A DNA stretch of 31,668 nt from a virus. The DNA is taken from IMG/VR virus record IMGVR_UViG_3300018080_000430, positions 1 through 31,668 of that record; one strand, written 5' to 3'. The notes below the pieces were generated by a model. It saw only the letters and a program-made list of their open reading frames with translations, searched no databases and was not told the DNA's origin. This document shows, in pieces, positions 4,004 to 20,725 of this stretch. Within the stretch, counting starts at the first letter, position 1. Each line of letters begins with the position of its first letter. The position numbers and the translations under genes are program-made.

Positions 4004-4918
4004 ATGGCTAACACGGCGATCACCCCCTTGAATTTCGCCGAATGGGCACATGCTGCAAGTCGCGATTATATTGCCAACGGAACGCTGATGAATACCTCGA
4101 TTGTGAAGGTAGCCCGGGAGAATGAATTGTCTCCCATGCAGATTCAGCGCGTTTGCGAAATTGCGAATCACCATGCCTATTCAGAACTATTCAAATCCGC
4201 AGAAGATAAGACCTTTGATTTTCCTTTGGCGAGTACCGAGGAAATAATGGAGGCGCTCAAAGAGGAACCGGAAAAAGTTGCCGCTGACTACATACTTGAC
4301 CCAGTAGGCAGCAAACGCGAGATCGACAGCAACAGGGTCTTTGGTGTCTCCGAGATTGGCAATGAGCCAGAAATTGAGGAACGACAAAAGTTGGCTCGTA
4401 AGGCCCTCGAAAAGATCGCAGCAGCTAAAGAGGAAATCTCTGGCATGTCTGTGTTCAACCATGAAGAGATTGTTGGGCTTGAAGATGAATTCTATAAGAT
4501 AGCGAAGCAGATGGTTCTTGAGGGGACATCCCTTCGTGATATTAGGGCTGCTTGCCAGGGCTCCTGGGATTCCCCCCGTGCAGAAGAGCTCATCGTTAAG
4601 ACTGCCATGAAAATGGCTCGCGAGGGTGTCCTCGGTGCAAAGCTTGAGTATCTCATGAAAACAAGTGAAGCCGTAGACGCTGCCCTGATATCTGATAAGC
4701 TCGCGAAGAACAACGCCGGTGTCCCAGTTCGTGTAATCAATGGCAATCATCCAATTGTTTCCACCATCAATACGCTCAACGACAAGTACAAGGACGCTGA
4801 CAACATGGAACAGAGTCTTGAGGTGTTGGATGACAAGGCACGGATGGTAAGATCCAAGATGGAAGACCTTAACACTTCGAAGAAAGTTGACCAGTATATT
4901 CAGAAAGAGGTGTCCTAG
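4004..4918 (+). CDS. Virion-operon first gene, unknown helical protein, 304 aa
   Basis: Family not identified with certainty. The sequence is almost entirely helical and soluble. Near the N-terminus it has LNFAEWAHAASRDYI, recalling the amphipathic tag seen in other proteins of this operon. Next comes a helix-turn region ARENELSPMQIQRVCEIAN (about 40-58), then EDKTFDFPLAS (about 68-78) and long Lys/Glu-rich helices. I chose ATG 4004 because AGGAGAA precedes it; the frame also opens at GTG 3977, which would overlap the operator-like element. It is first after the consensus promoter and overlaps the next gene by one base (TAGTG). A structural or core-protein role is inferred from position only. 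Confidence 0.7.
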   Translation: MANTAITPLNFAEWAHAASRDYIANGTLMNTSIVKVARENELSPMQIQRVCEIANHHAYSELFKSAEDKTFDFPLASTEEIMEALKEEPEKVAADYILDPVGSKREIDSNRVFGVSEIGNEPEIEERQKLARKALEKIAAAKEEISGMSVFNHEEIVGLEDEFYKIAKQMVLEGTSLRDIRAACQGSWDSPRAEELIVKTAMKMAREGVLGAKLEYLMKTSEAVDAALISDKLAKNNAGVPVRVINGNHPIVSTINTLNDKYKDADNMEQSLEVLDDKARMVRSKMEDLNTSKKVDQYIQKEVS

Positions 4919-5478
4919 TGGATTTGCGTGCTTTTGCTCGTGTACGTGTTATGGAATTCGAAAAGGATGCTGGCCTTCTCAACAAAGTGCGCGGTAAGCT
5001 TTGGAGTCTTGGCAGCACAGCCCGGAAGATGACGCCAGAGGCAAGGAAGGTCGTGTCGGGGATGGCTCCTAAATCTCGCGGGTCTTTTCTCGCTCTTCCC
5101 GCAAAGCAACAACAGAGGAATATAAGTAAGTTGATAAAGAGTAATGTCCGGGCTGATTCTGTTGCCAGAGCAACGGCGAAGGATACGGGTAAGCTTCTAA
5201 AACGAAGGGCCAACCTTCAGGGGCGCCTTAGGCAAAAGGGCAAAATAGCTCCCCGGGGCGGACCCAGATCCGCATCGCAGCAGGCGGCATATAAAACGAG
5301 AAGGACTAAGGCAATAGCGGCAAAACGAGAGGCTATACGGGCAGATACTGCGGCCCGTTTGAAAAGACATACGGAAAAAGAATTATCTTTGAGAAAAGTG
5401 CCTTATTATAGTGCTGCTGGTGGCGTTGGAGTTGGTGCCATGCTCGGGGCCAATACTAATGGTAGGTCGCAAAGCTAA
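4918..5478 (+). CDS. Tagged, very basic protein with C-terminal hydrophobic helix, 186 aa
   Basis: GTG start at 4918 overlaps the upstream stop and has a GAGG ribosome site. The N-terminus VDLRAFARVRVMEFEKDA is a form of the recurring amphipathic tag and ends in EKDA. The middle is extremely Lys/Arg-rich (KLLKRRANLQGRLRQKGK and many more), suggesting binding to DNA. The end carries a Gly/Ala-rich hydrophobic segment (YYSAAGGVGVGAMLGA, about residues 163-178) like a glycine zipper. Internal virion proteins that travel with DNA would have such composition; this is inference. No known family was recognised. Confidence 0.65.
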   Translation: MDLRAFARVRVMEFEKDAGLLNKVRGKLWSLGSTARKMTPEARKVVSGMAPKSRGSFLALPAKQQQRNISKLIKSNVRADSVARATAKDTGKLLKRRANLQGRLRQKGKIAPRGGPRSASQQAAYKTRRTKAIAAKREAIRADTAARLKRHTEKELSLRKVPYYSAAGGVGVGAMLGANTNGRSQS

Positions 5479-5937
5479 ATGTTGACTCTGAAAAAGTATG
5501 CACACGAGATGGTTAAGCAGTCAAACGCAAAGGTGCGTTTTGCCGACAGTCTTATAGGTCGCGGATTAAAGGGTGCGTCGTCTACGACCAAGTCTGCTGT
5601 TGCCCGGCTAAAGGAAATAATAAAAAAGAAAAAATCTAGCCCGAAAGAGCAGGAGAAGGCACTCAAGGCTTTTATGGATAGCCCCGCTGGTGCGGTTCTC
5701 AAAGAAACGGGGGCCGCCGCTGTCGGTGCGGGGAAACTTGTGGGTGGGATTTTTACGCGCAAGGCTCCAGGAGGTAAGCGCAAGCTAGACATCATGAAGG
5801 GGGCTGTCACATTAAGCATCCCTACGGGAATGTATTACGGTATGAAACGCGGAAGAATGAAGGTGAAGCAAAGTAAATATTACGGCCAGCGCAAGCCACC
5901 TTCTGTATATGCGGATCCCAGACGGAGGTTATATTAA
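5479..5937 (+). CDS. Tagged basic protein with glycine-rich hydrophobic segments, 152 aa
   Basis: Begins one base after the previous stop, with MLTLKKYAHEMVKQSNAK, a variant of the operon's N-terminal tag (M-x-L-x-x-[FY]-A-x-E-M). The protein is strongly basic (EIIKKKKSSPKEQEKALK) and contains an Ala/Gly-rich stretch (GAVLKETGAAAVGAGKLVGG, near residues 72-91). A second short hydrophobic piece near 112-123 (AVTLSIPTGMYYG) is followed by an Arg/Lys-rich tail. No family is recognised. Its stop overlaps the next ATG by one base (TAATG), so it is translated in series with its neighbours. Confidence 0.62.
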   Translation: MLTLKKYAHEMVKQSNAKVRFADSLIGRGLKGASSTTKSAVARLKEIIKKKKSSPKEQEKALKAFMDSPAGAVLKETGAAAVGAGKLVGGIFTRKAPGGKRKLDIMKGAVTLSIPTGMYYGMKRGRMKVKQSKYYGQRKPPSVYADPRRRLY

Positions 5938-6722
5938 TGAACACGATTCAGGACCTGTATGACTCTGGACAAATTAACGACGAAGAAATGGATAGACTAG
6001 CCAGCATTCGAGAGGGCTTTATTGAGGCCCTTGAAAAGGATGCCAGCGCCGTTGTCAATTTCATCCAAGAAGTTTTCAGCGAATGTAACGATGACGAGAT
6101 CGAGAAGATATCTGAAATGGTTGAGGCTCTTCGCACTGATATATTTATGCGCTGCGAAGATCCAGACCAGTATGTTCTGGCAAATATCGCGTCTGACATA
6201 GCTATGGAAAAAACCGCGAATATTTTCGGCAGCGCCCTTTCTTACATAGGCGAGGCTGGCAAGAAACTTCATCGCAACCCAATAGTGGGGAACGCCCTGA
6301 GTGCAGCCCTTGCAGGAACAGTTGGGCTTCATCTGCTCAATACGATTTCTCAGGGCGTAAGAACAATTAAGCATCCTTTTGAGGAATTAGCAGACCGTAA
6401 GAATACAGCCATCCAGTCTGAGGCCGCGCTGTCCTCAATATTGAAGAGCAATCCCGAGCTCAAGGCGGATAAAAGTACATATGACAACTTTGCTCTTTTG
6501 AGAAAATATGCCCCTCAGACTGTAGCCACAAATAAACCCTTGGCTGAGACTATGCTCAAGAAGATGCAGCAATGGGGTGGAGTAGATCCCCAGTCTCTGG
6601 CGCAGATGATAAAGATGGAGAAAGATTACCTAGATAACGCGAAATCTAGGTCTCTAATACCAGAAAGTCAGCCCCCATCATTGAGCATCAAAGCACCAGC
6701 TATTATGGAGCCACAGGCGTGA
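5937..6722 (+). CDS. Helical virion-operon protein with EKDA/EKTA tags and one hydrophobic helix, 261 aa
   Basis: No family recognised. The N-terminal 90 residues are acidic and helical and contain ALEKDASAVV (31-40) and AMEKTANIFG (89-98), matching the EK-x-A motif that recurs in this operon. A hydrophobic Gly/Ala helix follows (GNALSAALAGTVGLHLL, about 118-134). The C-terminal half is soluble and ends in a Pro-rich tail (PESQPPSLSIKAPA). The arrangement of an acidic pro-region, an EKTA site and a membrane-like helix fits a precursor cut at EKTA, but cleavage is not shown. The ATG at 5937 overlaps the previous stop. Confidence 0.65.
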   Translation: MNTIQDLYDSGQINDEEMDRLASIREGFIEALEKDASAVVNFIQEVFSECNDDEIEKISEMVEALRTDIFMRCEDPDQYVLANIASDIAMEKTANIFGSALSYIGEAGKKLHRNPIVGNALSAALAGTVGLHLLNTISQGVRTIKHPFEELADRKNTAIQSEAALSSILKSNPELKADKSTYDNFALLRKYAPQTVATNKPLAETMLKKMQQWGGVDPQSLAQMIKMEKDYLDNAKSRSLIPESQPPSLSIKAPAIMEPQA

Positions 6723-7087
6723 TATATGCCATTTTACGGCAACGAATGACCAAGGAGCCATCATTAGCAGGCGTAGTAATACTTGAGGGGCAGCAAATAC
6801 GTGTCACTGCCAGCTCGAAGTTACTTATGCGGCTTCTGGAGGAAATATTCGCATACCCCACAAAGGTCAAAGAAAGGACTGCTGAGGGGGTATTTAAGAG
6901 GACGCCGAAGACGGCACGTGAGAATATCAAGGTATCCCTAATGCAAAACCTGTATTACCCTTATAAGATCGGAGCCTTGAAAGATACCGTCGAATCCTCT
7001 AAAATATTGAAATACAAGAAAGTTTTTCCAACGAACATACTATATGGAGAGGTCAGACATGAGCAACCTACTATATCAGCTTCGTAG
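6719..7087 (+). CDS. Hypothetical virion-operon protein, 122 aa
   Basis: No family recognised. It most likely starts at GTG 6719, overlapping the preceding stop (GTGA), with GGAG eight bases upstream; ATG 6746 (MTKEPSLAGVV) is an alternative. The first half looks like a small alpha/beta fold (GVVILEGQQIRVTASS), and the second half is basic (TPKTARENIKVSLMQN). It lacks the amphipathic tag and glycine-zipper features of its neighbours. Its 3' end overlaps the start of the next gene by 29 nt. Confidence 0.6.
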   Translation: MIYAILRQRMTKEPSLAGVVILEGQQIRVTASSKLLMRLLEEIFAYPTKVKERTAEGVFKRTPKTARENIKVSLMQNLYYPYKIGALKDTVESSKILKYKKVFPTNILYGEVRHEQPTISAS

Positions 7088-7409
7088 CCGTCAGAGCGAG
7101 TTACACAAGGTAGCCGAATTTGAAAAGACTGCCGAGGAGATATTCGAGGCCGCCTTTTTCGATGAACTCGAAAAGCTGGGCTATGATGTAGAAATGCTCA
7201 AAGAGGCTGGTATCCTAGGCGATGCCGCCAAGTGGGGCATTGGGAAGATCAAGAGCCTTCTCCCCGGGGCTAAGAAAATGTCTAGGTTTCAGGCGGCAAC
7301 GCAGGCCAATGCTGCCAAGGCCGCAAGGGTACGCAAACGCATGAAGATGGTTCAGCAGGCTGGTAAGGACTGGGGTAAGACTAGGGGCCCTCAGGGTTGG
7401 GTAGGATAG
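7059..7409 (+). CDS. Protein with EKTA and FFDELEKL motifs, 116 aa
   Basis: The start was set at ATG 7059 because GGAGAGG precedes it; the 15-nt upstream extension lacks a site. The N-terminal half is unusual: VAEFEKTAEEIFEA (18-31) directly followed by AFFDELEKLGYD (32-43) and EMLKEAG, three short amphipathic modules found singly in other proteins of the operon. The second half is basic with a hydrophobic start (WGIGKIKSLLPGAKKM, later KAARVRKRMKMV) and could be a DNA- or membrane-active cargo. The 'F-[FYM]-DEL-x-K-[IL]' motif also occurs at 9739-10242 and, more loosely, 10266-10658. Function unknown. Confidence 0.65.
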   Translation: MSNLLYQLRSRQSELHKVAEFEKTAEEIFEAAFFDELEKLGYDVEMLKEAGILGDAAKWGIGKIKSLLPGAKKMSRFQAATQANAAKAARVRKRMKMVQQAGKDWGKTRGPQGWVG

Positions 7410-7412: not shown

Positions 7413-7670
7413 ATGCCTCTTCTTGAGAAGATTGCTGAAGCCGAAAGAAGCTCCATAGAGAGGTTTGCCCGTAAGCATCCCAGATTTGCCACACAAGTAC
7501 TGGGGTCTATCCCGGGGGATGTGATGGTGGCCCTGTTATTGAGAAAGAGCTCTATGAGTCCCCTTAAGAAGTTCTTGGCCCGTGTAGGCGGAGGAGCAGT
7601 CAGCGGAAGAGTCTCAGATGTTCTCTTTAGTAAAAAATTGAAAAAAGTGCTCGATAAAAGAGCGAATTGA
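7413..7670 (+). CDS. Small basic protein with degenerate tag, 85 aa
   Basis: No family recognised. The N-terminus MPLLEKIAEAERSSIERFARKHPRF contains two tag-like pieces (LLEKIAEA and ERFARKH). A middle hydrophobic region (LGSIPGDVMVALLL, about 30-43) is followed by a Gly-rich basic tail (RVGGGAVSGRV...). The ribosome site is weak (AGGAT five bases before the ATG), and the gene starts three bases after the upstream stop, suggesting translational coupling. Confidence 0.58.
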   Translation: MPLLEKIAEAERSSIERFARKHPRFATQVLGSIPGDVMVALLLRKSSMSPLKKFLARVGGGAVSGRVSDVLFSKKLKKVLDKRAN

Positions 7671-7719: not shown

Positions 7720-8049
7720 ATGGAGCTGCAGGATTATGCGAGATCGCAAGTAGCAGAGCTTCAAAAAGAGGCCCTGATGTCTAAACTTGTGGGGGCAGGT
7801 CGCTCAGTCATGCGCACTCTTACGGGTACTAGGGTAAAAGACCTGACCAAGAACGTTGCTCGTCTAGGCGGAAAGCGCGGGAAGCCCCTCGCTAAGACCG
7901 TCAAGAAGCTTGGCAAAAAGAAGGCCCAGGTAGCGCTAGACACAGCCGGAGAAGCCCTTCAGAAGGCCAAGCTCAGGCAGGCGATGGGTCGCCGTGCAGC
8001 CGCTGCTGGGGCTGGTGGGCTTGCAACTGGTTACGCCTTGAGCCAGTGA
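7720..8049 (+). CDS. Tagged (MELQDYA) basic glycine-zipper protein, 109 aa
   Basis: A strong site (AGGAGG, seven bases before ATG 7720) fixes the start. The N-terminus MELQDYARSQVAELQKEA is a clear copy of the operon-wide tag; MELQDYAR is shared exactly with the gene at 16564. Residues 20-90 are Lys/Arg-rich (KDLTKNVARLGGKRGKPLAK), and the protein ends in a Gly/Ala-rich hydrophobic helix (RRAAAAGAGGLATGYAL). Tag, basic middle and glycine-zipper end form the three-part plan repeated in several neighbours. It directly precedes the protease gene. An internal virion protein is my inference. Confidence 0.68.
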   Translation: MELQDYARSQVAELQKEALMSKLVGAGRSVMRTLTGTRVKDLTKNVARLGGKRGKPLAKTVKKLGKKKAQVALDTAGEALQKAKLRQAMGRRAAAAGAGGLATGYALSQ

Positions 8050-8058: not shown

Positions 8059-9717
8059 TTGGATAAGCTCCTGACAATTCCTCAGTACGATAAAGACGGC
8101 GAGCCCAACACGCGCCTTCTTTCCAGCATGTCTCCTGCTGGTTTCCAAAAAACCGCAGGAGTTTTGCCAGCTGAGGTACAGGAGTATTTGGCCAGGCTCA
8201 ATCCAGATCCAAATTTCCTGTATTTGCTGATCGTGGCCCTGGGTGCTGCCGACTATTGGGGATCTAATGTCAATGGAGATGCCTTCTTCGAGAAGGACCT
8301 TTTGGCCATGCAGAGCCCCATAGAGGCATTGAAAAATCCGGAGCCATATACTGGCAAGCAAATGCCTAGATACAAGACATTTACTTTTGCCAAGATCCGG
8401 AAACATCATCAGAACAAGGATCACCATCCTGACTATGGTCATGTCGAACTTCCCGTTTATGACGATGCGATGAAACGCGTTTTGCTGATTGTCGCCGTTG
8501 ACAGGAAGAAGGCCCCGGATATTGTGAGTGAGGCCGAAGCCGGGAACTCTATTGTTTGGTCTATGGGATGTAAGGTTGCGCGGGATGTATGCAGCATCTG
8601 CAATAATGCGTCTAAGACCGTCAAAGATTACTGTGATCATCTGAAGTATCAGATGAATCAGACGCTACCGTCTGGCGAGAAGGTGTTCGCGGTTAATCCA
8701 ACGCCCAGGTTCTTTGACATATCAAAAGTTCTTATCCCGGCTGATAAGACAGCATTTACATTAATGAAAGTGGCTAGTGAAATATCTAGTAAGGCTCTCA
8801 GTGTTCCTGATTATTACGCATCTGTTGGCGATTGTGGTGAGATGGCAAAGGTTGCGGCAGCACAAAATATAGTTGTGCCCTCAGCCTTTGCTGCCGAGCA
8901 CATGAAGGTGGCAGAGAAGTTGTCAGAGGACAAGGTCGGAGAGATTACTAAACGTATCCCGGCTGTTACGGCAGATAATGATCTGTCAGATGATGCGGCA
9001 AGCATTAAGGCTGTGCAAACTGCACATAAGATAAGTTGCGGGGAGAAATCCCTTAAGAATGCAGACATGGAGAGTCTTAGTAATCTCCCGTTGCATCAAA
9101 TCTTATCTTCCATGGCTGGCCTTGGCATGGTGGCGAAACCTCGTGAGTTTAAGCGGATAATCGTCATTAAGGTCAACAATGGGGCCAAGCGTGCCGACAT
9201 GAATCCTATTGTGTTGCCGGAAGCAGTAAAAACATCCGCGTTGCGGATACTGGCTCCTTACATTCCAGAGAGGTCTGCGTGTTCCCCCTGGATTGAGAAG
9301 AGAGCGAATAGGGCTGATGAGTCCTATCCATGTCGCCTGAACGGCGTCGTTAATGAAATGTACACGCAGTATCGCAATAGTCTCATGCAGTGGGACGTTC
9401 AAGACACAGAAGTAGTAATGACTAAGCATGCCAACCTTATAGTTCCGGAAGATGGCGCTGAGGAAGATTTCTTCGCAGCAATGGTTGGCATCACCAAGAC
9501 GGCTAGTCTTGGTAAAGCTACGGCATTAACCGGCCTGGCGGCTGGATCCCTGTTCGCTCCTTATCTTGCATCTGCGCATCTTCGACTGAAGGCTGCGCAA
9601 GAAGGTAAGTCGTTGACAGGGATTAAGAAGGTTGTTGCTGAGCGACCCGGAACTATAGGCACTGCTGGTATCACAGGAAGTGCTTTAGCCCTAGCACGGT
9701 TGTTAGGGAAGATTTGA
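8059..9717 (+). CDS. Prohead maturation protease-like protein, 552 aa
   Basis: The first 240 residues match what I know of phage prohead serine proteases (HK97 gp4/T4 gp21 fold). A 'NVNGD' turn (70-74) is followed by IRKHHQNKDHHPDYGHV (about 113-129), providing the catalytic His near 116-117. The strand-turn IVWSMGCKV (165-173) has the nucleophile Ser at about 168, in the usual 'S-x-G' context. A small zinc knuckle follows (CSICNN...YCDHL; Cys 178, 181, 192, His 194), then NPTPRFFDISKVLIPADK. The C-terminal 300 residues are unknown and include an Ala/Gly-rich hydrophobic stretch near 510-530. TTG start at 8059 with GAGGAT upstream. The protein itself carries QKTAG (30-34) and TKTAS, candidate self-processing sites. 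It lies upstream of the scaffold candidates and capsid, as expected. Confidence 0.62.
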   Translation: MDKLLTIPQYDKDGEPNTRLLSSMSPAGFQKTAGVLPAEVQEYLARLNPDPNFLYLLIVALGAADYWGSNVNGDAFFEKDLLAMQSPIEALKNPEPYTGKQMPRYKTFTFAKIRKHHQNKDHHPDYGHVELPVYDDAMKRVLLIVAVDRKKAPDIVSEAEAGNSIVWSMGCKVARDVCSICNNASKTVKDYCDHLKYQMNQTLPSGEKVFAVNPTPRFFDISKVLIPADKTAFTLMKVASEISSKALSVPDYYASVGDCGEMAKVAAAQNIVVPSAFAAEHMKVAEKLSEDKVGEITKRIPAVTADNDLSDDAASIKAVQTAHKISCGEKSLKNADMESLSNLPLHQILSSMAGLGMVAKPREFKRIIVIKVNNGAKRADMNPIVLPEAVKTSALRILAPYIPERSACSPWIEKRANRADESYPCRLNGVVNEMYTQYRNSLMQWDVQDTEVVMTKHANLIVPEDGAEEDFFAAMVGITKTASLGKATALTGLAAGSLFAPYLASAHLRLKAAQEGKSLTGIKKVVAERPGTIGTAGITGSALALARLLGKI

Positions 9718-9738: not shown

Positions 9739-10242
9739 ATGCCAAGCGTAGCAGAAATCCTTGCTCAGATGCTTGATACCCCCGCCGAAACCGAGAAGAC
9801 TGCACAGCCTGCAGACGTCCAGGAAACAAAAGTGGACGACAACGAGAAGCTTGCTGCCGAGTATGGTTGCACCGCTGAAGACGTTGCTGAGCTGAATGCA
9901 GAGCTTGACCAGGAAGAGGCACATGAGGAAGCCGAGAAACAGGCCGAAGAGGCCACGTTCCTTGGCCGCTTCATGGCTCGCGGCTTCATGGACGAGCTCC
10001 AGAAGATCGGTATGGGCGTTGGTGGTTCTGAGCCCACAACCACAGATCAGGGCGGCGACGTGCCGCAGGACGGGTCAGTTGCCAATCGCGTTGCACAAAC
10101 GTTGTCGGTGACCCATGGCCAGAAGCAGACTCCCAAGAAGGACGAGCTGAAGGCCGCTTTGAAGGCGCAGAGAGCTAATTTCCAGGTTGCTGACAACAAA
10201 GCTGTCGAACCTGCACCTGCTCTCGAAACTGAGTCGAAGTAA
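9739..10242 (+). CDS. Acidic scaffold-like protein, 167 aa
   Basis: A very acidic, Ala/Glu-rich helical protein located between the protease and capsid genes, where phage scaffold or core proteins lie. It begins MPSVAEILAQMLDTP and has ETEKTAQ (18-23), an acidic middle, then GRFMARGFMDELQKI (76-90), and a Gln/Lys-rich tail. The start segment, EKTA and the GR..AR...DEL.KI block are shared in the same order with the next gene, so the two look like diverged paralogs. The ribosome site AAAGGAG is good. Capsid assembly scaffold is inferred from position and composition; EKTA could be a cleavage site. Confidence 0.55.
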   Translation: MPSVAEILAQMLDTPAETEKTAQPADVQETKVDDNEKLAAEYGCTAEDVAELNAELDQEEAHEEAEKQAEEATFLGRFMARGFMDELQKIGMGVGGSEPTTTDQGGDVPQDGSVANRVAQTLSVTHGQKQTPKKDELKAALKAQRANFQVADNKAVEPAPALETESK

Positions 10243-10265: not shown

Positions 10266-10658
10266 ATGAGTCTTGCTGAAATCTACCGTGAACATTTCGG
10301 GGATACCGAAAAGACCGCAGAAGAAGCGCCTGTAGAGAACAACGCAGAAGCCCCGGCAGAGAACGAAGAAGGCGTAATGACCAAGGAAGCCGCAGATGCC
10401 GCTTTTGAGGAAGCCTTCGAAGCTCTCACTGAGGAAGAAGCTGAGAAACTCGCCCAGGTCGTAGAGGTCATGGACGAGGAAGGTCTTGAGTTTGATCATG
10501 ATCTGCAAAAGCTTGCTGCCGCTGCAGAGATCGTTGATGAGTACGAAGAGTACGTCGAAGCAGAGAAGACTGCAGCCGAAGAAATTGACGCTGGTGGTCG
10601 TCTTTTTGCTCGCGCAATAGTCGATGAGCTTGCCAAGATCGAGGAAGAGAACAAGTAA
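10266..10658 (+). CDS. Acidic scaffold-like protein, 130 aa, paralog-like
   Basis: Extremely acidic (Glu about one residue in four) and helical, beginning MSLAEIYREHFGDTEKTAEE. It ends with GRLFARAIVDELAKI (111-125), which aligns residue for residue with GRFMARGFMDELQKI of the preceding gene (nine of fifteen identical). A second EKTA is at about 100-103. Such terminal helices in scaffold proteins often bind the capsid protein, so this conserved block may be a capsid- or portal-binding motif; that is inference. Strong AAAGGAG ribosome site. A stable hairpin (10670-10697) follows the stop. Confidence 0.55.
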   Translation: MSLAEIYREHFGDTEKTAEEAPVENNAEAPAENEEGVMTKEAADAAFEEAFEALTEEEAEKLAQVVEVMDEEGLEFDHDLQKLAAAAEIVDEYEEYVEAEKTAAEEIDAGGRLFARAIVDELAKIEEENK

Positions 10659-10985: not shown

Positions 10986-11450
10986 ATGTCTGGCTTAGTA
11001 GACGAACTTGTTGAGGCTGTACTTTGTGAGCCGAAAGAATCAATTACCAAGCAGGCGGAAGACATGAGTGCTCCTGCTTCTCCTGATTGGGAAGAGCTGG
11101 CTAGTGAACTCGAAAAGCAGGCCGAGGAAGACCTGCATATCGTAGAGAGGGAAAAGTCCGTTGTTTCAGATGGTGTGCGTATGCAAAAGTTAGCGATGGC
11201 CACCATTTTGGACGTTATTGATGACCCCAAGTACATGCCAGCTATTGAAAAGATTTCTAGTGATGCGCAGGATCTCGTAAAGAGTGCGATGGACGCACCT
11301 GAGCCTGGCAGTGTTGGCGAACTTGCGCAAATCGCCAATACAGATGGACCGACCTATGTGAAGCACCCGGTTGGTAAGGGGCGAACCCTTTTCGAGAAGA
11401 TGAATACTGGTATTGTTTCAGCGCCAAATGTGGTAGCGGAGGATAAGTAA
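10986..11450 (+). CDS. Acidic helical protein with EKQA motif, 154 aa
   Basis: The start was set at ATG 10986 (AGGAGAACAGGA upstream); the frame is open further 5' within the previous gene. The N-terminus MSGLVDELVEAVL, then ITKQAEDM (about 20-27) and ELASELEKQAEEDL (about 39-52) repeat the EK-x-A theme of the operon. The rest is soluble and helical, with a Gly/Pro-containing C-terminus (VKHPVGKGRTLFEKM). It is coupled to the next gene by a one-base overlap (TAATG). It lies between scaffold-like and capsid genes, so an assembly or internal role is likely, but no family was recognised. Confidence 0.58.
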   Translation: MSGLVDELVEAVLCEPKESITKQAEDMSAPASPDWEELASELEKQAEEDLHIVEREKSVVSDGVRMQKLAMATILDVIDDPKYMPAIEKISSDAQDLVKSAMDAPEPGSVGELAQIANTDGPTYVKHPVGKGRTLFEKMNTGIVSAPNVVAEDK

Positions 11451-11797
11451 TGAGTAAGCCGAATCTAATGAAGAAAGCAGCAGCTGCCATACGGCATCTT
11501 GGTTCTGAGAATCAGGACCTGAAAGACCAAGTAGAAGATCTCAAGAAAACCGCCAGTTCCTTGAGTGAGATCGAGAAGGCGTCTAACGCCTCCAAGATCG
11601 TGCTTCAATTGGTTGCCGATGGCGAAGTGGACCCCGAGGATGCACTTGAGAAATTTGCAGAGGTTTGTACACTTACCCCTGCAGAGATCAAGCTTGTTCT
11701 TGGAAAGTGTGAGTCAGAGAGTATTGGTCGGGTTAAGACTGCGTCTGTTGACGCCGTTGCCGACCCCCTCTCTGCCTATTTACTTGGAATTGAGTAA
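11450..11797 (+). CDS. Small helical protein upstream of capsid genes, 115 aa
   Basis: No family recognised. It begins with a basic Ala-rich helix (MSKPNLMKKAAAAIRHLG) and a short coiled coil (SENQDLKDQVEDLKKTASSL). A compact helical domain (ASKIVLQLVADGEVDPEDAL then EKFAEVCTLTPAEI) follows, and it ends DPLSAYLLGIE. KKTA (31-34) and VKTAS near the end fit the recurrent K-x-A pattern. The ATG at 11450 overlaps the previous stop. The next gene is the decoration-like protein. Confidence 0.57.
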   Translation: MSKPNLMKKAAAAIRHLGSENQDLKDQVEDLKKTASSLSEIEKASNASKIVLQLVADGEVDPEDALEKFAEVCTLTPAEIKLVLGKCESESIGRVKTASVDAVADPLSAYLLGIE

Positions 11798-12310: not shown

Positions 12311-13222
12311 ATGAATGGTGTTGATAATGCCACAATCAACAGCCTCTTTCACCAGGCTGTAGATGACCCTCAAGAGCTTCCCAAGCTGGCACAGGCTGCC
12401 GGTGCGTTTATTCGCCAGAAGCTCCGCGAGGTGTCATTTGCTCGGAAGATTATTCCTCCGATCAGTGTTACCAAAGCTGACTGTCAGCGTTCAGTGAATC
12501 ACGACGTTCTCGTCAAGATCATTGACATCGAGCCTGACAGCTATGCAATGCCGCTTGATTTTCGGGCACAGCCCGACGGCAACTGGATCCAGGGAGAGCG
12601 GTATGAAGTTCCCTTTAGCTCCATCGGATCCGAAGAGTTCAACAAGAGTGAGCAGGAACTGCTTGCTTATGAGATGCCCATCACCAAGATCATCGAAGAG
12701 AATGCGGTGAAGGACATCCAGAAGGTAGAAGATGAGCGCTTCCTTCAGTACGTCGAAGCTGCTATCGCTGCCGCAACCGCGCTGCACCCCGCCGAGCCGA
12801 AGAGCATCACCGTTTCGGACACCAAGGTGACCCGCAACGCGATCAGCCAGCTGGCTAAGCTTCTCCCCGGCCAGGAACTGCGTCTGGCGACCATCCTCAT
12901 GCATGAGGTGGACTACGCAGATATCCTGACTTGGGAAGCCGTTGATGTTGGTGACCGTCTCGCCAGTGAAATCACTGTCGATGGTTACAAGTATCAGCAG
13001 ATCGGTGGCTACAAGCTGGTTAGCTCCATCAAGAAGGGTGTTGTAACCCAGGGCGATATCTATGGGTTTACAGATCCTCAGTTCCTTGGCAACTTCTTCA
13101 TTCTGAACCAGACCAAGTTCTGGATCGATAAGAGAGCCAATATCATCAGCTTCCGTGCTTGGGAAGATGTTGGTATGGGAATTGGAAACATTGAGAGTGC
13201 AGCTAAGGTTATACTCTCTTAG
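12311..13222 (+). CDS. Major capsid protein, 303 aa
   Basis: Called as the HK97-fold capsid protein from position (after protease, scaffold-like and decoration-like genes), size and layout. It has an N-terminal helical arm (about 1-60), an extended-loop region rich in charged residues (DFRAQPDGNWIQGERYEVPF, about 84-103), a long spine-type helix (NAVKDIQKVEDERFLQYVEA), and a C-terminal beta/P-domain with YKYQQIGGYKLV and ANIISFRAWEDVGMGI. The last resembles the end of capsid proteins of large myophages and siphophages. The ATG at 12311 has an AAGGAG site. There is no obvious EKTA-type pro-site. A long hairpin (13239-13294) follows the gene. Confidence 0.78.
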   Translation: MNGVDNATINSLFHQAVDDPQELPKLAQAAGAFIRQKLREVSFARKIIPPISVTKADCQRSVNHDVLVKIIDIEPDSYAMPLDFRAQPDGNWIQGERYEVPFSSIGSEEFNKSEQELLAYEMPITKIIEENAVKDIQKVEDERFLQYVEAAIAAATALHPAEPKSITVSDTKVTRNAISQLAKLLPGQELRLATILMHEVDYADILTWEAVDVGDRLASEITVDGYKYQQIGGYKLVSSIKKGVVTQGDIYGFTDPQFLGNFFILNQTKFWIDKRANIISFRAWEDVGMGIGNIESAAKVILS

Positions 13223-14400: not shown

Positions 14401-14817
14401 ATGCCTATAATGGAAAAAATATCAGCTGCCATTGAGAACATCTTCCATGGGGAGGCATACGAGAAGAAGTTCACTGAGAAGGATGCCAATCCAAAAGAAC
14501 TCGCAATGGGTATTAAGGTGGAGATGGAACATACTCCGGACCCCGCCCTTGCGAAGAAGATCGCGCTGGACCATCTAGCAGAGTTGCCTGACTATTATAC
14601 CAGGCTGGCAAAGATGGAGCGAGAAGGTAAGAAAATGTTGAAAAAGGAGGCATCAATGGAGCTTCAGGAATTTGCAAAAGAGATGTGTAAGGAGGCAAAC
14701 GTAAGGAGAGTCGTAGGTGGAGTCGCCGAGGCTGCACTGCGTAAAGCCAAGCTTGCGCCAAAGAATGCCGCTAAAATAGAGAAGCTGCTTAAGAAGCTTC
14801 TTCGAGTAAAACAATAG
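14401..14817 (+). CDS. DUF5661-like domain joined to tagged C-terminal module, 138 aa
   Basis: Residues about 15-80 (ANPKELAMGIKVEMEHT, then ALAKKIALDHLAELPDYYTRL) match DUF5661, a short helical domain of unknown function common in phages, with its conserved E-H-T and D-H-L-x-E-x-x-D-Y-Y positions. It is followed in frame by MLKKEAS and then MELQEFAKEMCKEA, the same tag found at the N-termini of separate proteins, and a basic helical tail. ATG 14401 has GGAG at good spacing; an open frame to 14320 overlaps the previous gene and was rejected. The junction contains an ideal ribosome site and ATG (14656), so this could be a fusion or two overlapping products. Confidence 0.65.
   Translation: MPIMEKISAAIENIFHGEAYEKKFTEKDANPKELAMGIKVEMEHTPDPALAKKIALDHLAELPDYYTRLAKMEREGKKMLKKEASMELQEFAKEMCKEANVRRVVGGVAEAALRKAKLAPKNAAKIEKLLKKLLRVKQ
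14656..14817 (+). CDS. Likely internal-start product: tagged 53-aa basic protein
   Basis: Inside the DUF5661-like gene, AAAGGAGG stands six bases before an in-frame ATG at 14656. Initiation there would give a stand-alone protein beginning MELQEFAKEMCKEANVRRVV and ending in Lys/Arg-rich helices (RKAKLAPKNAAKIEKLLKK). Because the tag is N-terminal in all the other clear cases, this start is probably used. It has no glycine zipper. Confidence 0.5.
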   Translation: MELQEFAKEMCKEANVRRVVGGVAEAALRKAKLAPKNAAKIEKLLKKLLRVKQ

Positions 14818-15598: not shown

Positions 15599-16135
15599 AT
15601 GAAACTATCTGAGTTTGCAAGGGAGCGTATAAAGACGGCTGGCGTGTCTGCCATAGCTAAGACCCTTTTCAAAAAGGGACTGACTTGGGGCGAGAGGCTT
15701 GCAAGGGCCAAGAAGCGAACTAAGCTTTGGCTTGGGCGTAGCACCATTGGTACCAGGGGTATGGTAGGTAAGGGTGTGGGCGAAGCTGGGAAGGGCATGT
15801 TGACTTCCCCCATAAAAACCATGAAGCGTGGCTTTAAGGAGATGAGGGGAGATGAGAAAGCATTTGCTGGCGGTCTTGGTGTTCTGTCCGCGCAGGATGC
15901 AGTGGGCAAGCTTGAGCCTGGAGAAACAAGGGCTGGGCGTGTTGGATCGAACCTCGGCATGATGGCTGGGTTACTTGCTACGCCGTACAAGAAAGTGGGC
16001 ATACTTGGCAATATATTGGCAAGCGACATCATTGGGGGCGGTCTTGGCAGACAGGCAGGTCGTCTTACATCTAAGATTACGGGAATTGGTGGAGCGGCCA
16101 AGCCCGGATCGATGGAATACAAATTTAGAAGTTAA
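15599..16135 (+). CDS. Tagged (MKLSEFARERIKTA) basic, Gly-rich protein, 178 aa
   Basis: It begins MKLSEFARERIKTAGVSAIA, a close variant of the tag consensus, ending in KTA. The remainder is basic and rich in Gly/Met/Ala (GVGEAGKGMLTSPIKTMKRG, later GVLSAQDAVG), with weakly hydrophobic segments (NLGMMAGLLATPY; ILGNILASDIIGGGLG) that could interact with membranes. The start is ATG 15599, two bases after the stop of the previous gene, with a weak ribosome site, so coupling is likely. No family recognised. I infer an internal or ejected virion protein by analogy to its tagged neighbours. Confidence 0.62.
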   Translation: MKLSEFARERIKTAGVSAIAKTLFKKGLTWGERLARAKKRTKLWLGRSTIGTRGMVGKGVGEAGKGMLTSPIKTMKRGFKEMRGDEKAFAGGLGVLSAQDAVGKLEPGETRAGRVGSNLGMMAGLLATPYKKVGILGNILASDIIGGGLGRQAGRLTSKITGIGGAAKPGSMEYKFRS

Positions 16136-16147: not shown

Positions 16148-16333
16148 ATGAGCGACAAGATGGACATTCGTGAGTACAAGAATTACGCACAAGGCACCCA
16201 TGGCAAGGGTACCATCAATGAGGGGATGCTTAAGGCTATGGATAGGGCTACAGGCGGTAAGAAGCTTAGTAAGTCTGAGTGGAATGATATGAATGCCAAG
16301 ATAAAGATTAAAGGCGCAGAGATGGAGGGGTGA
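16148..16333 (+). CDS. Small hypothetical protein, 61 aa
   Basis: Start ATG 16148 has a strong AAGGAG site. The protein is basic and soluble (MSDKMDIREYKNYAQGTHGK, later DRATGGKKLSKSEWNDMNAK). The N-terminus IREYKNYAQ is only loosely like the tag. Its stop overlaps the next gene's start (TGATG). No family recognised. Confidence 0.6.
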   Translation: MSDKMDIREYKNYAQGTHGKGTINEGMLKAMDRATGGKKLSKSEWNDMNAKIKIKGAEMEG

Positions 16334-16564
16334 TGAGCATCCAAGAGAAGATCGCAAAGGTTTTGACTCCAGAAGCCCGTGAGGACCTTCCGGCTAAGTC
16401 TTTTGCGGGATCTGATGAGTCTTATCCAGTGCATGACAAGAAACATGTGATAGCAGCTATCGCATATGCAAAGAAAAACATGGGGCGTTCAGGCTCGAGG
16501 GGCCTGGCCCAAAATCAGAGCAGCTGCAAAGCGGTACGATATTGATATCGAAAGGAGAAACTAA
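16333..16564 (+). pseudogene. DUF6582-like gene with apparent +1 frameshift near 16500
   Basis: ATG 16333 opens a frame with LTPEAREDLPAKSFAG and YPVHDKKHVIAAIAYAKK, the core of the phage domain DUF6582. Family members end in a conserved helix like 'W.KI.AAAK+..I'. In the primary frame the sequence becomes unrelated after MGRSGSRG and stops at 16545. In the +1 frame, from TGG at 16505, it reads WPKIRAAAKRYDIDIERRN and stops at 16562-16564, overlapping the ATG of the next gene in the same TAATG way as its neighbours. The shift occurs in GGGGCCTGGCCCAAAA. It may be a sequencing error, an inactivating mutation or programmed frameshifting. The intact product would be about 76 aa. Confidence 0.7.
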
Positions 16565-16935
16565 TGGAACTACAGGATTATGCAAGAGAGATGTGCAAGG
16601 AGGCCGTTGCGTCGAAGACACGAAAGATCTTGAAGGGTCTAAGTCTTAAGGGGCAGGGTATCTATACGTCTGAAACGATGCCTGGAGCTATCAAACGCCT
16701 AAAGCAACTACTGACTGGATCCAGGGCGTCTGAGCTTTCTGCTGCCAGCAAGGATCTTCATAAGAATATAGATAAATTGCCCATGGATCTTCGCTCTCGC
16801 CTTAGGGCCGTTCATAATCTCTCTCGGGAGGGTATGAAGGAGAACCTAAAGGTCCTCGGAACGCGAGCCACGGCTGCAACTGGAGTTGCTGGTGCTGGGT
16901 ATGCAGCGCATAAGGCTATGAAAAAGAAGAAATAG
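16564..16935 (+). CDS. Tagged (MELQDYAREMCKEA) basic glycine-zipper protein, 123 aa
   Basis: The archetype of the tag: MELQDYAREMCKEAVASK. The tag shares MELQDYAR with the gene at 7720, and AREMCKEA is nearly identical to AKEMCKEA encoded at 14656. A Lys/Arg-rich helical body follows (KTRKILKGLSLKGQG; AIKRLKQLLTGSRASE). The protein ends with a small hydrophobic Gly/Ala helix and a Lys tail (ATAATGVAGAGYAAHKAMKKKK region, about 103-123). Good AAAGGAGAAA ribosome site at 16553-16560. The downstream neighbour is the ATP-grasp-like gene. Function is unknown; I infer a packaged internal protein. Confidence 0.68.
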   Translation: MELQDYAREMCKEAVASKTRKILKGLSLKGQGIYTSETMPGAIKRLKQLLTGSRASELSAASKDLHKNIDKLPMDLRSRLRAVHNLSREGMKENLKVLGTRATAATGVAGAGYAAHKAMKKKK

Positions 16936-18071: not shown

Positions 18072-18524
18072 CTCTTCTTTGTGTAGGCATGTCCGTGCCC
18101 TTATTGATGGGTCGGCAAGCTCAATGAATTTGCCACTGTACTGGGAGATTACCGAATAGTGTCCACCACTGAATCCAGGCACATCAAACCGGATGCAGAT
18201 TGGAGGACACCCTTTGTCGATTTCCTTTTTGATGTTTTTGAGGGTTGTCTTTTTCCATTTTGTAGTGAAGCCATAGTCTTCGAATAGATCTTCGATGCTC
18301 TCTGCATAGGAGCCCTCTAGGTCTTCGACGACTTCTTCACATATGTTTTGGATATTGGCATTGATGCCGTGTGACTTTAATATGGTTAACGCAGCCACCG
18401 CACCACAACTACAGAAATCTGTTTGTATGTATCGAGTGAGTCCTCCTGATGTCTTGCCGAATGGGAATGCGGCGGGGATTCGAAGCGTATCTCGAAATTT
18501 GTTCCATGTTTTTCTTAGGTTCAT
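18027..18524 (-). CDS. C39-like/papain-fold cysteine peptidase, 165 aa
   Basis: The sequence fits the C39-like fold. It has a Gln and catalytic Cys (YIQTDFCSCGAVAALTIL; Gln 34, Cys 40), a helical middle (ICEEVVEDLEGSYAES), then the His strand GGHYSVISQY (His about 122) and an Asp in IELADPS (about 138). Such domains hydrolyse peptide bonds; in bacteriocin transporters they cut after a Gly-Gly leader, and in phages they also occur alone. ATG 18524 has AAAGGAGAAG. It is the only minus-strand gene within the virion operon and has its own extended -10 promoter, so timing probably differs from the operon. It overlaps the ATP-grasp-like gene tail to tail. Confidence 0.65.
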   Translation of the reverse strand: MNLRKTWNKFRDTLRIPAAFPFGKTSGGLTRYIQTDFCSCGAVAALTILKSHGINANIQNICEEVVEDLEGSYAESIEDLFEDYGFTTKWKKTTLKNIKKEIDKGCPPICIRFDVPGFSGGHYSVISQYSGKFIELADPSIRARTCLHKEELDDALFDRLLCLHL

Positions 18525-18544: not shown

Positions 18545-18553
18545 CTTATACCA
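18545..18553 (-). promoter_or_regulatory. Extended -10 promoter for the antisense peptidase gene
   Basis: On the minus strand TGGTATAAG forms an extended -10 element (TGn plus TATAAG) about 25 nt before the ribosome site of the gene at 18524. A poor -35 (TTGTTA with 14-nt spacing) lies upstream. An independent promoter is expected because the gene is antisense to the whole operon. Confidence 0.45.
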
Positions 18554-18576
18554 TTTTTGGAAGGTAACAATACGGA

Positions 18577-18909
18577 ATGAACAAGGTGTCAGCCAAGTGG
18601 GATAAGATGTGGCGTGCAGGAGAAATACCTGCGAATGCCATCAAGAGGATACTTAAGAGCAGGTCGCCGGTAGAGACCCTGGTAGACAACCATCATCTTA
18701 TTGTGGGTAGCCCAAAATACCCGTTTACCTACAAGGGTGTAAAAAAGGCTGTTAGCGGTGAGCTCAGGTTTCGTGGCAAGAGTACGGGTGGCATAAGCGA
18801 TAAGATCGTGGCCGCTGCAAGGAAAATGTCTAGAGATGGATTGCCTCGCAAAAAGCGATATGACCCATTCGCCGAGGCTTATGGTATCTCTAGAGGGAAG
18901 AAAAAATGA
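18577..18909 (+). CDS. Hypothetical basic protein, 110 aa
   Basis: No family recognised. It is basic throughout, with two clear parts: a helical start (MNKVSAKWDKMWRAGEIPAN), then a beta-like PKYPFTYKGVKKAVSGELRF and a Lys/Arg-rich end (DGLPRKKRYDPFAEAYG). It may bind DNA or the virion surface. Its ATG lies just after the divergent promoter region of the antisense peptidase and has no strong ribosome site. Its stop overlaps the next start (ATGA). It precedes the HK97 gp10-like gene, so a neck role is possible. Confidence 0.58.
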   Translation: MNKVSAKWDKMWRAGEIPANAIKRILKSRSPVETLVDNHHLIVGSPKYPFTYKGVKKAVSGELRFRGKSTGGISDKIVAAARKMSRDGLPRKKRYDPFAEAYGISRGKKK

Positions 18910-19373
18910 GCGTTGTCAAGGTAATCGAGCTCCAGCCATCATTCAGTGCGCAGCCACCAGATTGGGTGCGCATGAATGTCATGAAGGAGCGGGTTGTCAA
19001 CAATATCAAGGAGATATGCTACTCTGGGATCTTCAAACATCCCACCGGGGCCCTTGCAAATTCGATAAAGGGCTACGTGTCCGGGAACTCGATCTATGTC
19101 ATTTCCGATGCCCCATATGCCAAGGCGCAGGAAGAGGGTGTGAGACCCCATGTGATGTGGTATCTTTTAGGTAAAACCATACCCATAAAGGACTTTCGGT
19201 TTGGCCAGCGCAGAACTATTTACCGAAAGGCTACCCTTAAGAGCTACCTGCGTGGGGGATGGAGGCATCCTGGGTATGAAGGTAAACATTTCATGCAGCA
19301 GGGTATTGCCAAAGCAGTTGCAGAATTTGAAGATGAATTCAGTGACCACAATATGTGGGTGAGGGATATGTGA
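18906..19373 (+). CDS. HK97 gp10-like neck/tail-completion protein, 155 aa
   Basis: The centre of the protein reads FKHPTGALANSIKGYVSG, IYVISDAPYAKAQEEGVRPH and, at the end, GGWRHPGYEGKHFMQQGIAKAV. This is the characteristic gp10/HK97-type tail-completion pattern: 'TG.L..SI', 'YA...E.G...H' and 'hPG......+....'. These proteins sit at the head-tail junction and are needed to join the tail. The length is as expected. The ATG at 18906 overlaps the previous stop, and its own stop overlaps the next gene by one base. Confidence 0.78.
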   Translation: MSVVKVIELQPSFSAQPPDWVRMNVMKERVVNNIKEICYSGIFKHPTGALANSIKGYVSGNSIYVISDAPYAKAQEEGVRPHVMWYLLGKTIPIKDFRFGQRRTIYRKATLKSYLRGGWRHPGYEGKHFMQQGIAKAVAEFEDEFSDHNMWVRDM

Positions 19374-19603
19374 TGAACAAGCACAATATCAAGGGCTTCA
19401 CGGAAGAGATTGAGAAGATGGCTATAGCCCCCCTCTTGCTCGGGGGTGCCGCTCTTGGTAGCGCAGCGCTGGGATATGGCGGTTACAAGGCATACAAGTC
19501 ATACCAGGCGAAGAAGATGAAAGAGAAGCAGCTTGAGGCTCGTCAGCTGCATTCCAATAGACTGGGAAAATTAGCTCCAAGGCTAGACCCACAACTACTT
19601 TAG
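19373..19603 (+). CDS. Tagged small glycine-zipper membrane protein, 76 aa
   Basis: The N-terminal MNKHNIKGFTEEIEKMA is a tag of the 'GF..EIEK.A' subtype, followed directly by a hydrophobic Gly/Ala helix (IAPLLLGGAALGSAALGYGG, about 18-37) and a Lys/Arg tail (KKMKEKQLEARQLHSNRLG). ATG 19373 overlaps the upstream stop (TGATG), with GAGGGA before it. The tag-helix-basic layout is the same as in the next gene. It may be a pore- or ejection-related internal protein; this is inferred. Confidence 0.63.
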   Translation: MNKHNIKGFTEEIEKMAIAPLLLGGAALGSAALGYGGYKAYKSYQAKKMKEKQLEARQLHSNRLGKLAPRLDPQLL

Positions 19604-19613
19604 GAGATATGTC

Positions 19614-19853
19614 ATGAGTCGTTCAAAGGGATTCCTGGAAGAGATCCAGAAGGAAGCAAACATGAAACAGATTGCCAAGTATCTTGCCGCCGCTGGTGGT
19701 GGTGCTGCGCTTGGCGGAGGGGCGGCCTATGCTGTTGGCGAGAAGAAGCGCAAGACGCACCTGAAGCAACTCGCTGACCTATTCCGGCAGGCAAATATTG
19801 CCGAGAACAAGATGATTGCCCAGAGAGCCTTCCAGGCCGGGAAGCAGTCGTGA
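19614..19853 (+). CDS. Tagged small glycine-zipper membrane protein, 79 aa
   Basis: MSRSKGFLEEIQKEANMKQ is the 'GF.EEI.KEA' tag subtype; it shares the GF.EEI.K core with the previous gene's tag. A glycine-zipper helix (YLAAAGGGAALGGGAAYAVG, about 24-43) leads into a basic segment (EKKRKTHLKQLADLFRQ) and a helical end. Strong AGGAGA ribosome site. It probably duplicated with 19373-19603, as both have tag, hydrophobic helix and basic tail in equal order and length. Confidence 0.63.
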   Translation: MSRSKGFLEEIQKEANMKQIAKYLAAAGGGAALGGGAAYAVGEKKRKTHLKQLADLFRQANIAENKMIAQRAFQAGKQS

Positions 19854-20029
19854 TTACGCTCAGAGAGTTCGCCAAAGAGGCCATGTGTGGAAAATCGCAC
19901 AAGAAGAAGACAAAGAAGCTCGGAGCATATTTGCAAAAGAAGGCCGCATATCGTATAATATCTAGTCGGTCCAAGAGGTTAGCTCCGGGGGCCACTGTTG
20001 TGACAAGTAAGTCGAAGCGGAAATATTGA
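19850..20029 (+). CDS. Tagged very basic protein, 59 aa, GTG start
   Basis: Short gene below 60 residues. GTG 19850 overlaps the upstream stop (GTGA). The product begins MITLREFAKEAMCG, a clear tag variant (M-x-L-x-E-F-A-K-E), and is then almost entirely Lys/Arg-rich (KSHKKKTKKLGAYLQKKAAY; SSRSKRLAPGATV; SKSKRKY). There is no membrane segment. A DNA-binding cargo that enters with or condenses the genome is plausible. The stop at 20027-20029 is followed by AGGAGA for the next gene. Confidence 0.6.
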   Translation: MITLREFAKEAMCGKSHKKKTKKLGAYLQKKAAYRIISSRSKRLAPGATVVTSKSKRKY

Positions 20030-20041
20030 TAGGAGATTCTC

Positions 20042-20230
20042 ATGGCATTTCAGGTAGCCAATCTAGGATATGACCTCAGTATTGAAGGCCATGTCAAGGA
20101 TAGCCCTAACCCAGGAGACCCGGGTACGGGACGCTTGGGGTTTGAGGAGTGGCTCAATGATAATGTGACCACTCTTCATGACGTTGACTATGCAAACAGC
20201 CAGACAAAGCAGGTAGTCGTTTATGAATAA
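20042..20230 (+). CDS. Small acidic hypothetical protein, 62 aa
   Basis: No family recognised. It is a soluble, acidic, Gly/Pro-containing protein (MAFQVANLGYDLSIEGHVKD; GDPGTGRLGFEEWLNDNVTT) without the tag or hydrophobic helix. AGGAGA lies at good spacing from ATG 20042. It overlaps the next gene by 8 nt. It could be a tail or neck accessory protein. Confidence 0.6.
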   Translation: MAFQVANLGYDLSIEGHVKDSPNPGDPGTGRLGFEEWLNDNVTTLHDVDYANSQTKQVVVYE

Positions 20231-20564
20231 GAATATGCTCGCAGGTTTTCGCACAGAGATGGAAAAGCAGGCCATCAGCCTTGAGGAAGGCGTGAAGGGG
20301 CTTGGCGTTGGTGCTATCATGGGCGCGATACTTGCGGCTATGGGTGCCAAGGCACTGGAGAGGCTTGTCGTCAGAAACAAAGACGCAGCCATTCTCGCTG
20401 GAGCTATTATGGGTGCTGGCACGATGGGCAGTGCGGGTTACTTGCTGGGACAGCCCAAGCAAAATGTGACAAATGTCACGCCTCCGCCTGCTCCCCCGGC
20501 TGGTGTTGTTATCCATGGTGCTCCTCCTGCCGGTACACCGATTAGTTCTATGAGGCATATATGA
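20223..20564 (+). CDS. Tagged protein with two hydrophobic helices, 113 aa
   Basis: MNKNMLAGFRTEMEKQA is the 'GF..E.EK.A' tag. It is followed by ISLEEGVKGLG and two Gly/Ala/Met-rich hydrophobic segments, VGAIMGAILAAMGAKAL (about 30-46) and AAILAGAIMGAGTMGSAGYLLG (about 55-76), separated by a basic turn (ERLVVRNKD). A Pro/Val-rich tail ends the protein (TPPPAPPAGVVIHG). Two antiparallel helices are compatible with a holin or pore, but the tag argues for a virion-internal origin. No ribosome site of note; it starts within the previous gene. Confidence 0.58.
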   Translation: MNKNMLAGFRTEMEKQAISLEEGVKGLGVGAIMGAILAAMGAKALERLVVRNKDAAILAGAIMGAGTMGSAGYLLGQPKQNVTNVTPPPAPPAGVVIHGAPPAGTPISSMRHI

Positions 20565-20725
20565 ACAAGATAGCCCTTGGTGACAAGATAACGAGTGCCT
20601 ATAAGACAAAGGCTGGCAAGGAACGAGAGGCTGGTCAGAAGCCCGTGGTGCACGGCAAGAGGGATATCGCTACGGTTCCCCTTGCAAAGTTTGCGCGTGA
20701 GCGCATCGCAGCAGGTAAAAGATGA
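20561..20725 (+). CDS. Small basic protein with C-terminal tag-like sequence, 54 aa
   Basis: A 54-residue gene, too short for usual cut-offs, overlapping both neighbours by 4 nt (ATGA at each end). It is basic (MNKIALGDKITSAYKTKAG; EREAGQKPVVHGKRDI) and ends in PLAKFARERIAAGKR, which resembles the FARERI core of MKLSEFARERIKTA at 15599 but is at the C-terminus. Whether it is functional or a remnant is open. The overlap with the next start supports it being translated. Confidence 0.55.
   Translation: MNKIALGDKITSAYKTKAGKEREAGQKPVVHGKRDIATVPLAKFARERIAAGKR

Follow-up and report, generated by a model that had tools for sequence, protein, structure and literature searches.

Why should so many small and largely dissimilar proteins of one phage operon begin with variants of the same short peptide? 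The question is raised by IMG/VR virus record IMGVR_UViG_3300018080_000430 from an uncultured phage, analysed here over its whole length of 31,668 bases (the window). Megablast of the window against isolate phages returned 0 relatives; the closest isolate relatives of the window phage are Salmonella phage Arash and three Vibrio phages. A plus-strand operon at about 4.0 to 24.5 kb codes for a head maturation protease, scaffold-like acidic proteins and an HK97-fold capsid protein, together with neck and tail genes and many small basic proteins, and the shared N-terminal peptide, here called the tag, recurs within this operon. The original prediction was that the tag is a head-sorting signal like that of phage T4, cleaved after or near K-x-A (Lys, any residue, Ala). 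In T4 the capsid-targeting sequence (CTS) is an N-terminal peptide of the internal proteins IPI-III that is removed by gp21 (PMC9026906). Our comparisons support the proposal: K-x-A is enriched in the head block and not in later genes, it is found in the N-arm of the major capsid protein (MCP), at the protease flanks and in scaffold-like proteins, in several relatives tags recur genome-wide on proteins unrelated to each other, each phage having different ones, and homologs of K-x-A-rich head proteins occur in Arash virions. It is quite probable that the tags are removable head-targeting sequences of the T4 CTS kind with a new Lys-x-Ala cleavage specificity, both cleavage and targeting being predicted from these comparisons.

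All ten N-termini (10/10) on which the prediction was built were found at their coordinates, and genes 5937, 7059, 7413 and 16333 add further N-termini with a K-x-A ending. The tags and tag-like segments of the window are as follows.

4918..4971, plus strand: N-terminal tag MDLRAFARVRVMEFEKDA of gene 4918, a basic protein of 186 amino acids (aa) with a GTG start
5479..5523, plus strand: N-terminal tag MLTLKKYAHEMVKQS of gene 5479, a K-x-S variant ending in K-Q-S
6015..6044, plus strand: tag-like GFIEALEKDA, residues 27-36 of gene 5937
7059..7133, plus strand: N-terminus of gene 7059 with HKVA and EKTA, then FFDELEKLG and MLKEA; kept in the homolog of relative G001
7413..7436, plus strand: N-terminal tag MPLLEKIA of gene 7413
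7720..7773, plus strand: N-terminal tag MELQDYARSQVAELQKEA of gene 7720
14656..14697, plus strand: tag MELQEFAKEMCKEA of 14656, in frame with the upstream DUF5661 open reading frame (ORF) 14401
15599..15640, plus strand: N-terminal tag MKLSEFARERIKTA of gene 15599
16333..16356, plus strand: N-terminal MSIQEKIA of gene 16333, a small, weakly DUF6582-like protein
16564..16605, plus strand: N-terminal tag MELQDYAREMCKEA of gene 16564
19373..19423, plus strand: N-terminal tag MNKHNIKGFTEEIEKMA (...GFTEEIEKMA) of gene 19373, a glycine-rich basic protein
19614..19658, plus strand: N-terminal tag MSRSKGFLEEIQKEA (...GFLEEIQKEA) of gene 19614
19850..19882, plus strand: partial tag MITLREFAKEA of gene 19850, which has a GTG start; K-x-A is absent in the usual register
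20223..20273, plus strand: N-terminal tag MNKNMLAGFRTEMEKQA (...GFRTEMEKQA) of gene 20223
20687..20722, plus strand: C-terminal tag-like end KFARERIAAGKR of gene 20561

The N-terminal tag of the window is genuine and lies far above chance. Measured against 2000 residue shuffles of the same 34 window proteins, the pattern [FY]xxE..K.[AS] is found within the first 30 residues of 7 genes (0.05 expected; at most 2 genes in any of the 2000 shuffles), [LI]xx[FY][AT][RKH] within the first 12 residues of 7 genes (0.01 expected), and K-x-A within the first 25 residues of 19 genes (8.9 expected). The tagged proteins are very basic, with a median isoelectric point of 10.3 against 5.2 for the other genes (P = 2e-4). 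The prediction had described two tag classes, and both sequences are there, yet they are better read as one motif with the common core F-x-x-E-h-x-K-x-A. The K-x-A ending holds generally and fails in 5479 and in 19850, which keeps the first half of the pattern only. It had also been stated that the rest of each protein differs. This is correct for most tagged bodies, which have no convincing similarity to each other, and not for 4918, 7720 and 16564, which are weakly similar (E 4e-4 and 0.007); these basic proteins (4918-5478, 7720-8049 and 16564-16935) are perhaps old paralogs.

Two genes carry, or may carry, a tag or tag-like segment away from an ordinary N-terminus. ORF 14401-14817 has a DUF5661 domain (E 1.6e-13) and places MLKKEA immediately before the in-frame MELQEFAKEMCKEA tag, so that 14656 is one of two things: a start inside the 14401 ORF, served by a good ribosome-binding site, or simply an inner stretch of that ORF. 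Either cleavage or an internal start could thus divide the ORF. Gene 20561 (20561-20725) codes for a 54-aa protein whose KFARERIAAGKR end is a C-terminal version of the window's tag. In the relative G012, C-terminal or internal tag copies are found on a NUDIX protein, which is N-terminally tagged as well, and on small proteins. This suggests that either end of a protein can carry the tag.

Next, we examined which residue pairs are over-represented in head proteins, using an assumption-free scan in which pairs at spacings 1-4 were ranked (1470 patterns). In 13 homologous head blocks K-x-A ranks first (1/1470) with 598 occurrences against 271 expected (z=20.9), while the post-capsid genes of the 13 relatives show no enrichment (154 vs 150 expected, z=0.3). 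The identical script, run as a control on six T4 head proteins, placed IxE first and LxE sixth, which is the known T4 cleavage motif. Around K-x-A, L/M/I/F is favoured at P5, E at P4, T/V at P2 and E/S at P1', and G/P is shunned at P2; the longer pattern [LMIF]xKxA is enriched sixfold in the head blocks (328 vs 54), and K-x-S and R-x-A show no enrichment there. A profile search for the related protease returned more than 500 loci. When 57 non-redundant loci were counted as an independent set, the protease itself being excluded, K-x-A again ranked first in the pooled data (2358 vs 1348, z=32.7) and exceeded z=3 in 45 of the 57. More distant phages with a homologous protease, Rhodococcus phage E3 and Phrappuccino, gave no clear K-x-A signal (z 0.2 and 2.1), which confines the signal to the studied clade. 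The candidate cutting site is shared across hundreds of uncultured relatives, and a phage-specific variant of the label was present in many of those examined.

The protease and the K-x-A-bearing head proteins of the window are listed here.

4004..4918, plus strand: K-x-A-rich head protein, homolog of Arash gp220, conserved in position and sequence in relatives; gp220 was found in the virion by mass spectrometry
8059..9717, plus strand: head maturation (prohead) protease, 552 aa, folded core at residues 38-239, conserved H117 and S168-M-G
8149..8157, plus strand: K-T-A site near the protease N-terminus (residues 31-33), candidate self-cleavage site
8767..8775, plus strand: K-V-A site towards the protease C-terminus (residues 237-239), candidate self-cleavage site
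9739..10242, plus strand: scaffold-like acidic protein with several K-x-A sites; internal GFMDELQKIG (residue 82) matches the GF tag class
10266..10658, plus strand: scaffold-like acidic protein with several K-x-A sites
10986..11450, plus strand: head-block protein with several K-x-A sites
11450..11797, plus strand: head-block protein with several K-x-A sites
12311..13222, plus strand: HK97-fold MCP, candidate N-arm site K25-L-A27 at 12383-12391

The 8059 gene product matches phrog_18299 head maturation protease (E=4.6e-9) and aligns by hhalign with the prohead protease gp77 of phage E3 (98.7%, E=1.9e-16), and its gene sits relative to the scaffold-like and capsid genes as a prohead protease of this type (E3 gp77-like, PHROG 18299) would. 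H117 and S168-M-G are present in 58 of 58 non-redundant relatives; this Ser and His would suit a serine protease, and their catalytic role is predicted. Residues 178-194 hold a near-invariant CxxC...CxH segment (55-58 of 58 relatives), likely a zinc knuckle. In the protease of the closest relative (L003:4530-7391) an intein lies directly after the S-M-G motif (Intein_splicing E 6e-9). In the AlphaFold full-chain model residues 1-34 and 241-328 have low confidence and are unfolded, and the AF2 model of the core (residues 30-243) has a confident fold (pLDDT 90.7). The two K-x-A sites bracket this folded domain, just outside it on both sides, and their Lys and Ala are conserved while neighbouring residues vary: K31 in 53/54 and A33 in 54/55 of the ungapped relatives (58 in all), K237 and A239 each in 53/58. 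Foldseek with the full-length model gave noise alone because most of the chain is unfolded, and the core-only model was used instead. Among the 50 hits listed for the core, T4 gp21 (5jbl) had the best TM-scores (TMq 0.42, TMt 0.53), a non-significant match (E 0.29, probability 0.69). Sequence homology to T4 gp21 was not detected by hhalign (probability 0.4%, E 0.16), and a PDB sequence search with the protease found no relevant match.

The capsid protein matches phrog_2522 (E=2.9e-17), the phage G gp27 structure 6wkk (E 7e-6) and NF042927 (E=4.2e-16, below the curated cutoff). Its N-arm K-x-A stands just before a conserved AFIRxKLREVSFARK segment in all 13 family members read, slightly displaced in L009. 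Judged from sequence, K-x-A at the protease flanks and in the MCP N-arm is arranged as in a prohead protease that processes itself along with its substrates.

To follow the tag into related phages, N-termini were clustered within each genome with cross-genome pairs as the null; a simple script had called the gene starts in the metagenomic contigs. In several relatives a repeated tag was found that differs in sequence from the window's and keeps the K-x-A ending. The families that end in K-x-A are MxxFWxGFEKRA (G012, 11 genes), AFxDELxKIA (G013, 8), MDKAExxFEKLA (G006, 7), GFxDELxKL[AGS] (G014, 6), MSxEKIAxAI (G011, 4), MNNSxKLxAxxLLKxA (G005, 4) and MSLxLIExAIEKIA (G003, 3). Among the tagged bodies are an SNF2 helicase and the NUDIX protein (both of G012) and, from G014, a DNA-ligase/3'-phosphoesterase-like protein. 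The tag on orthologous helicases changes with the phage (FWLGFEKRA, AFADELAKIA, KKLLKEA, LRFMEKHA, LGDYLLKSA), and K-x-A precedes the body in 42 of 64 distinct SNF2 helicase N-termini, which are not all independent and vary in pre-body length, compared with 13% of the remaining long genes. In G001, the homolog of gene 20223 retains the tag in the form GFYEELEKRS. A protein of G014 whose glycine-rich body is similar probably starts with GFHDELEKLG (by eye), and a scaffold-like protein of G014 holds GFHDELSKLA, a copy of the tag core.

Further evidence comes from phage Arash, in which mass spectrometry detected 116 virion proteins (PMC10585845). The list includes gp220-226, homologs of the K-x-A-rich head proteins, and the small N-terminal K-x-A proteins gp95 and gp100; all Arash proteins with at least two [LMIF]xKxA sites (13/13) are on it. 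The paper names neither a protease nor cleavage sites (PMC10585845). As a separate observation, the RNA polymerase beta subunits Arash gp206 (L015) and Vibrio phage D69 4948 (L016) begin with MPKSA/MPKKA followed by S; gp206 is the most abundant virion protein by spectra, and the phage RNA polymerase may be packaged.

In the explanation that we favour, an N-terminal peptide of about 8-18 residues (occasionally C-terminal) would bind a component of the prohead core and so build small, mostly very basic proteins, in relatives also enzymes, into the prohead. The peptide would end in [L/M/I/F]-E-K-x-A with E, S or A as the next residue, a site recognised by the prohead protease that the phage itself encodes in the middle of this operon. 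Substrates of this protease would be the tags, the MCP N-arm, both of its own flanks and the scaffold-like proteins, and cutting of the tags would free the cargo in the head before DNA packaging. The tagged small proteins are probably carried inside the head and trimmed there; from these patterns we infer the cut after Ala, the physical targeting, the release and the delivery of cargo with DNA. Ala at P1 is deduced from the pattern and from the analogy with [LI]xE and AxE proteases. In T4 CTS mutants, residues 4 and 7 serve targeting and residues 8 and 10 processing, and the two are separable (PMC9026906), which matches the variable upstream part and the fixed end of the tags in the window's clade; by this analogy core binding would fall to the upstream part, and release of the cargo by the protease would depend on the K-x-A end. 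The GF tag of the window lineage may mimic a scaffold contact or copy a scaffold segment, as a scaffold-like protein holds GFxDELxK.

Several observations weigh against this explanation. The Arash helicase gp217 is in the virion (1148 spectra) without a tag. Some Arash proteins expected to lose a propeptide show near-full coverage (gp95 99.2%, gp100 98.8%, gp223 100%); the coverage column is implausible (the 361-aa gp177 has 100% with 2 unique peptides) and thus unusable as a test of propeptide loss. The more distant phage G shares the N-terminal protease site and has a capsid protein without K-x-A; several of its proteins (L017, Bacillus phage G) begin MKRLI(S)KxA-like. Clear repeated tags were found in 8 of 14 phages examined in bulk and none in G010 or Arash, and genes 5479 and 19850 of the window depart from the K-x-A ending. 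Counted genome-wide over the first 25 residues, K-x-A gives little or no signal in several relatives and is not raised in Arash or D69; the test is weak because tags sit on a minority of genes, and clustering within genomes was used instead.

Among the alternatives, the closest keeps K-x-A as a true prohead-protease site and makes the peptide a spacer or pro-peptide only, entry being due to DNA binding or to an affinity of the body for the core. Untagged gp217 in the Arash virion fits this, and strongly basic tagged proteins could enter with the DNA. A spacer would not need an upstream part that is conserved within a phage and differs between phages, nor would helicase orthologs need to swap tags, and we consider this alternative unlikely. 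It is less probable still that K-x-A and the tags form an uncleaved docking motif, a helical stretch with which proteins attach to the scaffold or the capsid shell. Many tags look helical, and the tag core is copied in scaffold-like proteins (GFMDELQKIG in gene 9739, GFHDELSKLA in G014). K-x-A, however, flanks the folded protease domain on both sides and sits in the MCP N-arm, selection reaches P1' (E/S) and bars G/P at P2 as expected of a protease site, and the T4 control recovered a genuine cleavage motif.

The shared N-termini might instead be relics of recent duplication in diverged paralogs with no sorting function, to which the weakly similar bodies of 4918, 7720 and 16564 would be suited. 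The remaining tagged bodies lack convincing similarity, one phage has the same tag on small unrelated proteins as well as on an SNF2 helicase and a NUDIX protein, and recent gene duplication as the source was rejected since orthologous helicases swap tags; this origin, largely refuted, is very improbable. Nor is there much reason to believe, and we rate this lowest of all, that the tags address another intracellular site such as a phage replication compartment and resemble head sites incidentally. A tagged helicase and a ligase-like enzyme could act in replication, but the tags end in the motif that the protease and the capsid protein conserve and whose enrichment is confined to the head block, and the Arash helicase ortholog is in the virion.

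The favoured head-sorting explanation can be placed among known systems. As with the T4 CTS (10-19 residues), a short N-terminal peptide stands on unrelated basic proteins and ends in what would be the prohead-protease motif, and the protease gene of the head operon shortly precedes the scaffold and capsid genes. The motif differs ([LMIF]-E-K-x-A here, [LI]-x-E in T4); the tags of the window's clade are numerous, phage-specific and in relatives also found on enzymes, and their targeting role is putative. Proteases of the SPN3US/phiKZ gp245/gp175 type (AXE or SXE; PMC10052503) have, as the present protease would, a free P2 with fixed P3 and P1 and many head proteins as substrates, and S preferred at P1' and self-processing, known there, are predicted here from sequence. 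Unlike them, the present protease would take Lys at P3 and Ala at P1, and the short repeated tags contrast with several long SPN3US propeptides (111-254 residues). The E3 gp77 protease domain is homologous, including SMGC and the Cys/His-rich segment, whereas the head proteins of E3 show no K-x-A enrichment (12 against 11.5 expected), and the specificity thus belongs to the studied clade. Arash and Vibrio phage D69 share a homologous capsid protein and protease, both with K-x-A, and a K-x-A-rich head block; unlike the window phage, Arash has no detected repeated tag family. Herpesvirus assemblin, a capsid maturation protease of the same broad class, cuts after Ala and before Ser; it differs in its hydrophobic P3 and in acting on sites of scaffold release and maturation. 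A published report of K-x-A specificity or of such tags was not found in the literature searched, with most subscription papers outside it.

We lean somewhat towards a wider picture in which tailed phages of a very large clade, uncultured for the most part and represented by more than 500 contigs with the protease, combine a Lys-x-Ala-specific prohead protease with modular addressing: many lineages would place a head-entry tag of their own before a universal cut site, could attach it to either end of a protein, and would so load their own enzymes and DNA-binding proteins into the head, the window's tag perhaps copying a scaffold segment. If so, a sequence rule would predict which genes of unknown function in this clade have products that travel in the head and probably reach the host together with the DNA, a prohead-protease specificity with P3 Lys and P1 Ala would be added to those known, and head-targeting tags would be exchangeable modules, different from one phage to another, with which proteins of choice could be loaded into heads.

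Two other genes of the window were noted. A Peptidase C39-like protein (E 6e-13) is encoded at 18027-18524 on the minus strand, opposite to the virion operon within which it lies. At 28019-30028, also on the minus strand, a calcineurin-like phosphoesterase gene of 669 aa is apparently interrupted by an intein (LAGLIDADG-like match; GHCFSDDTELLTRDGW... to ...VFVAGNTHRADY).

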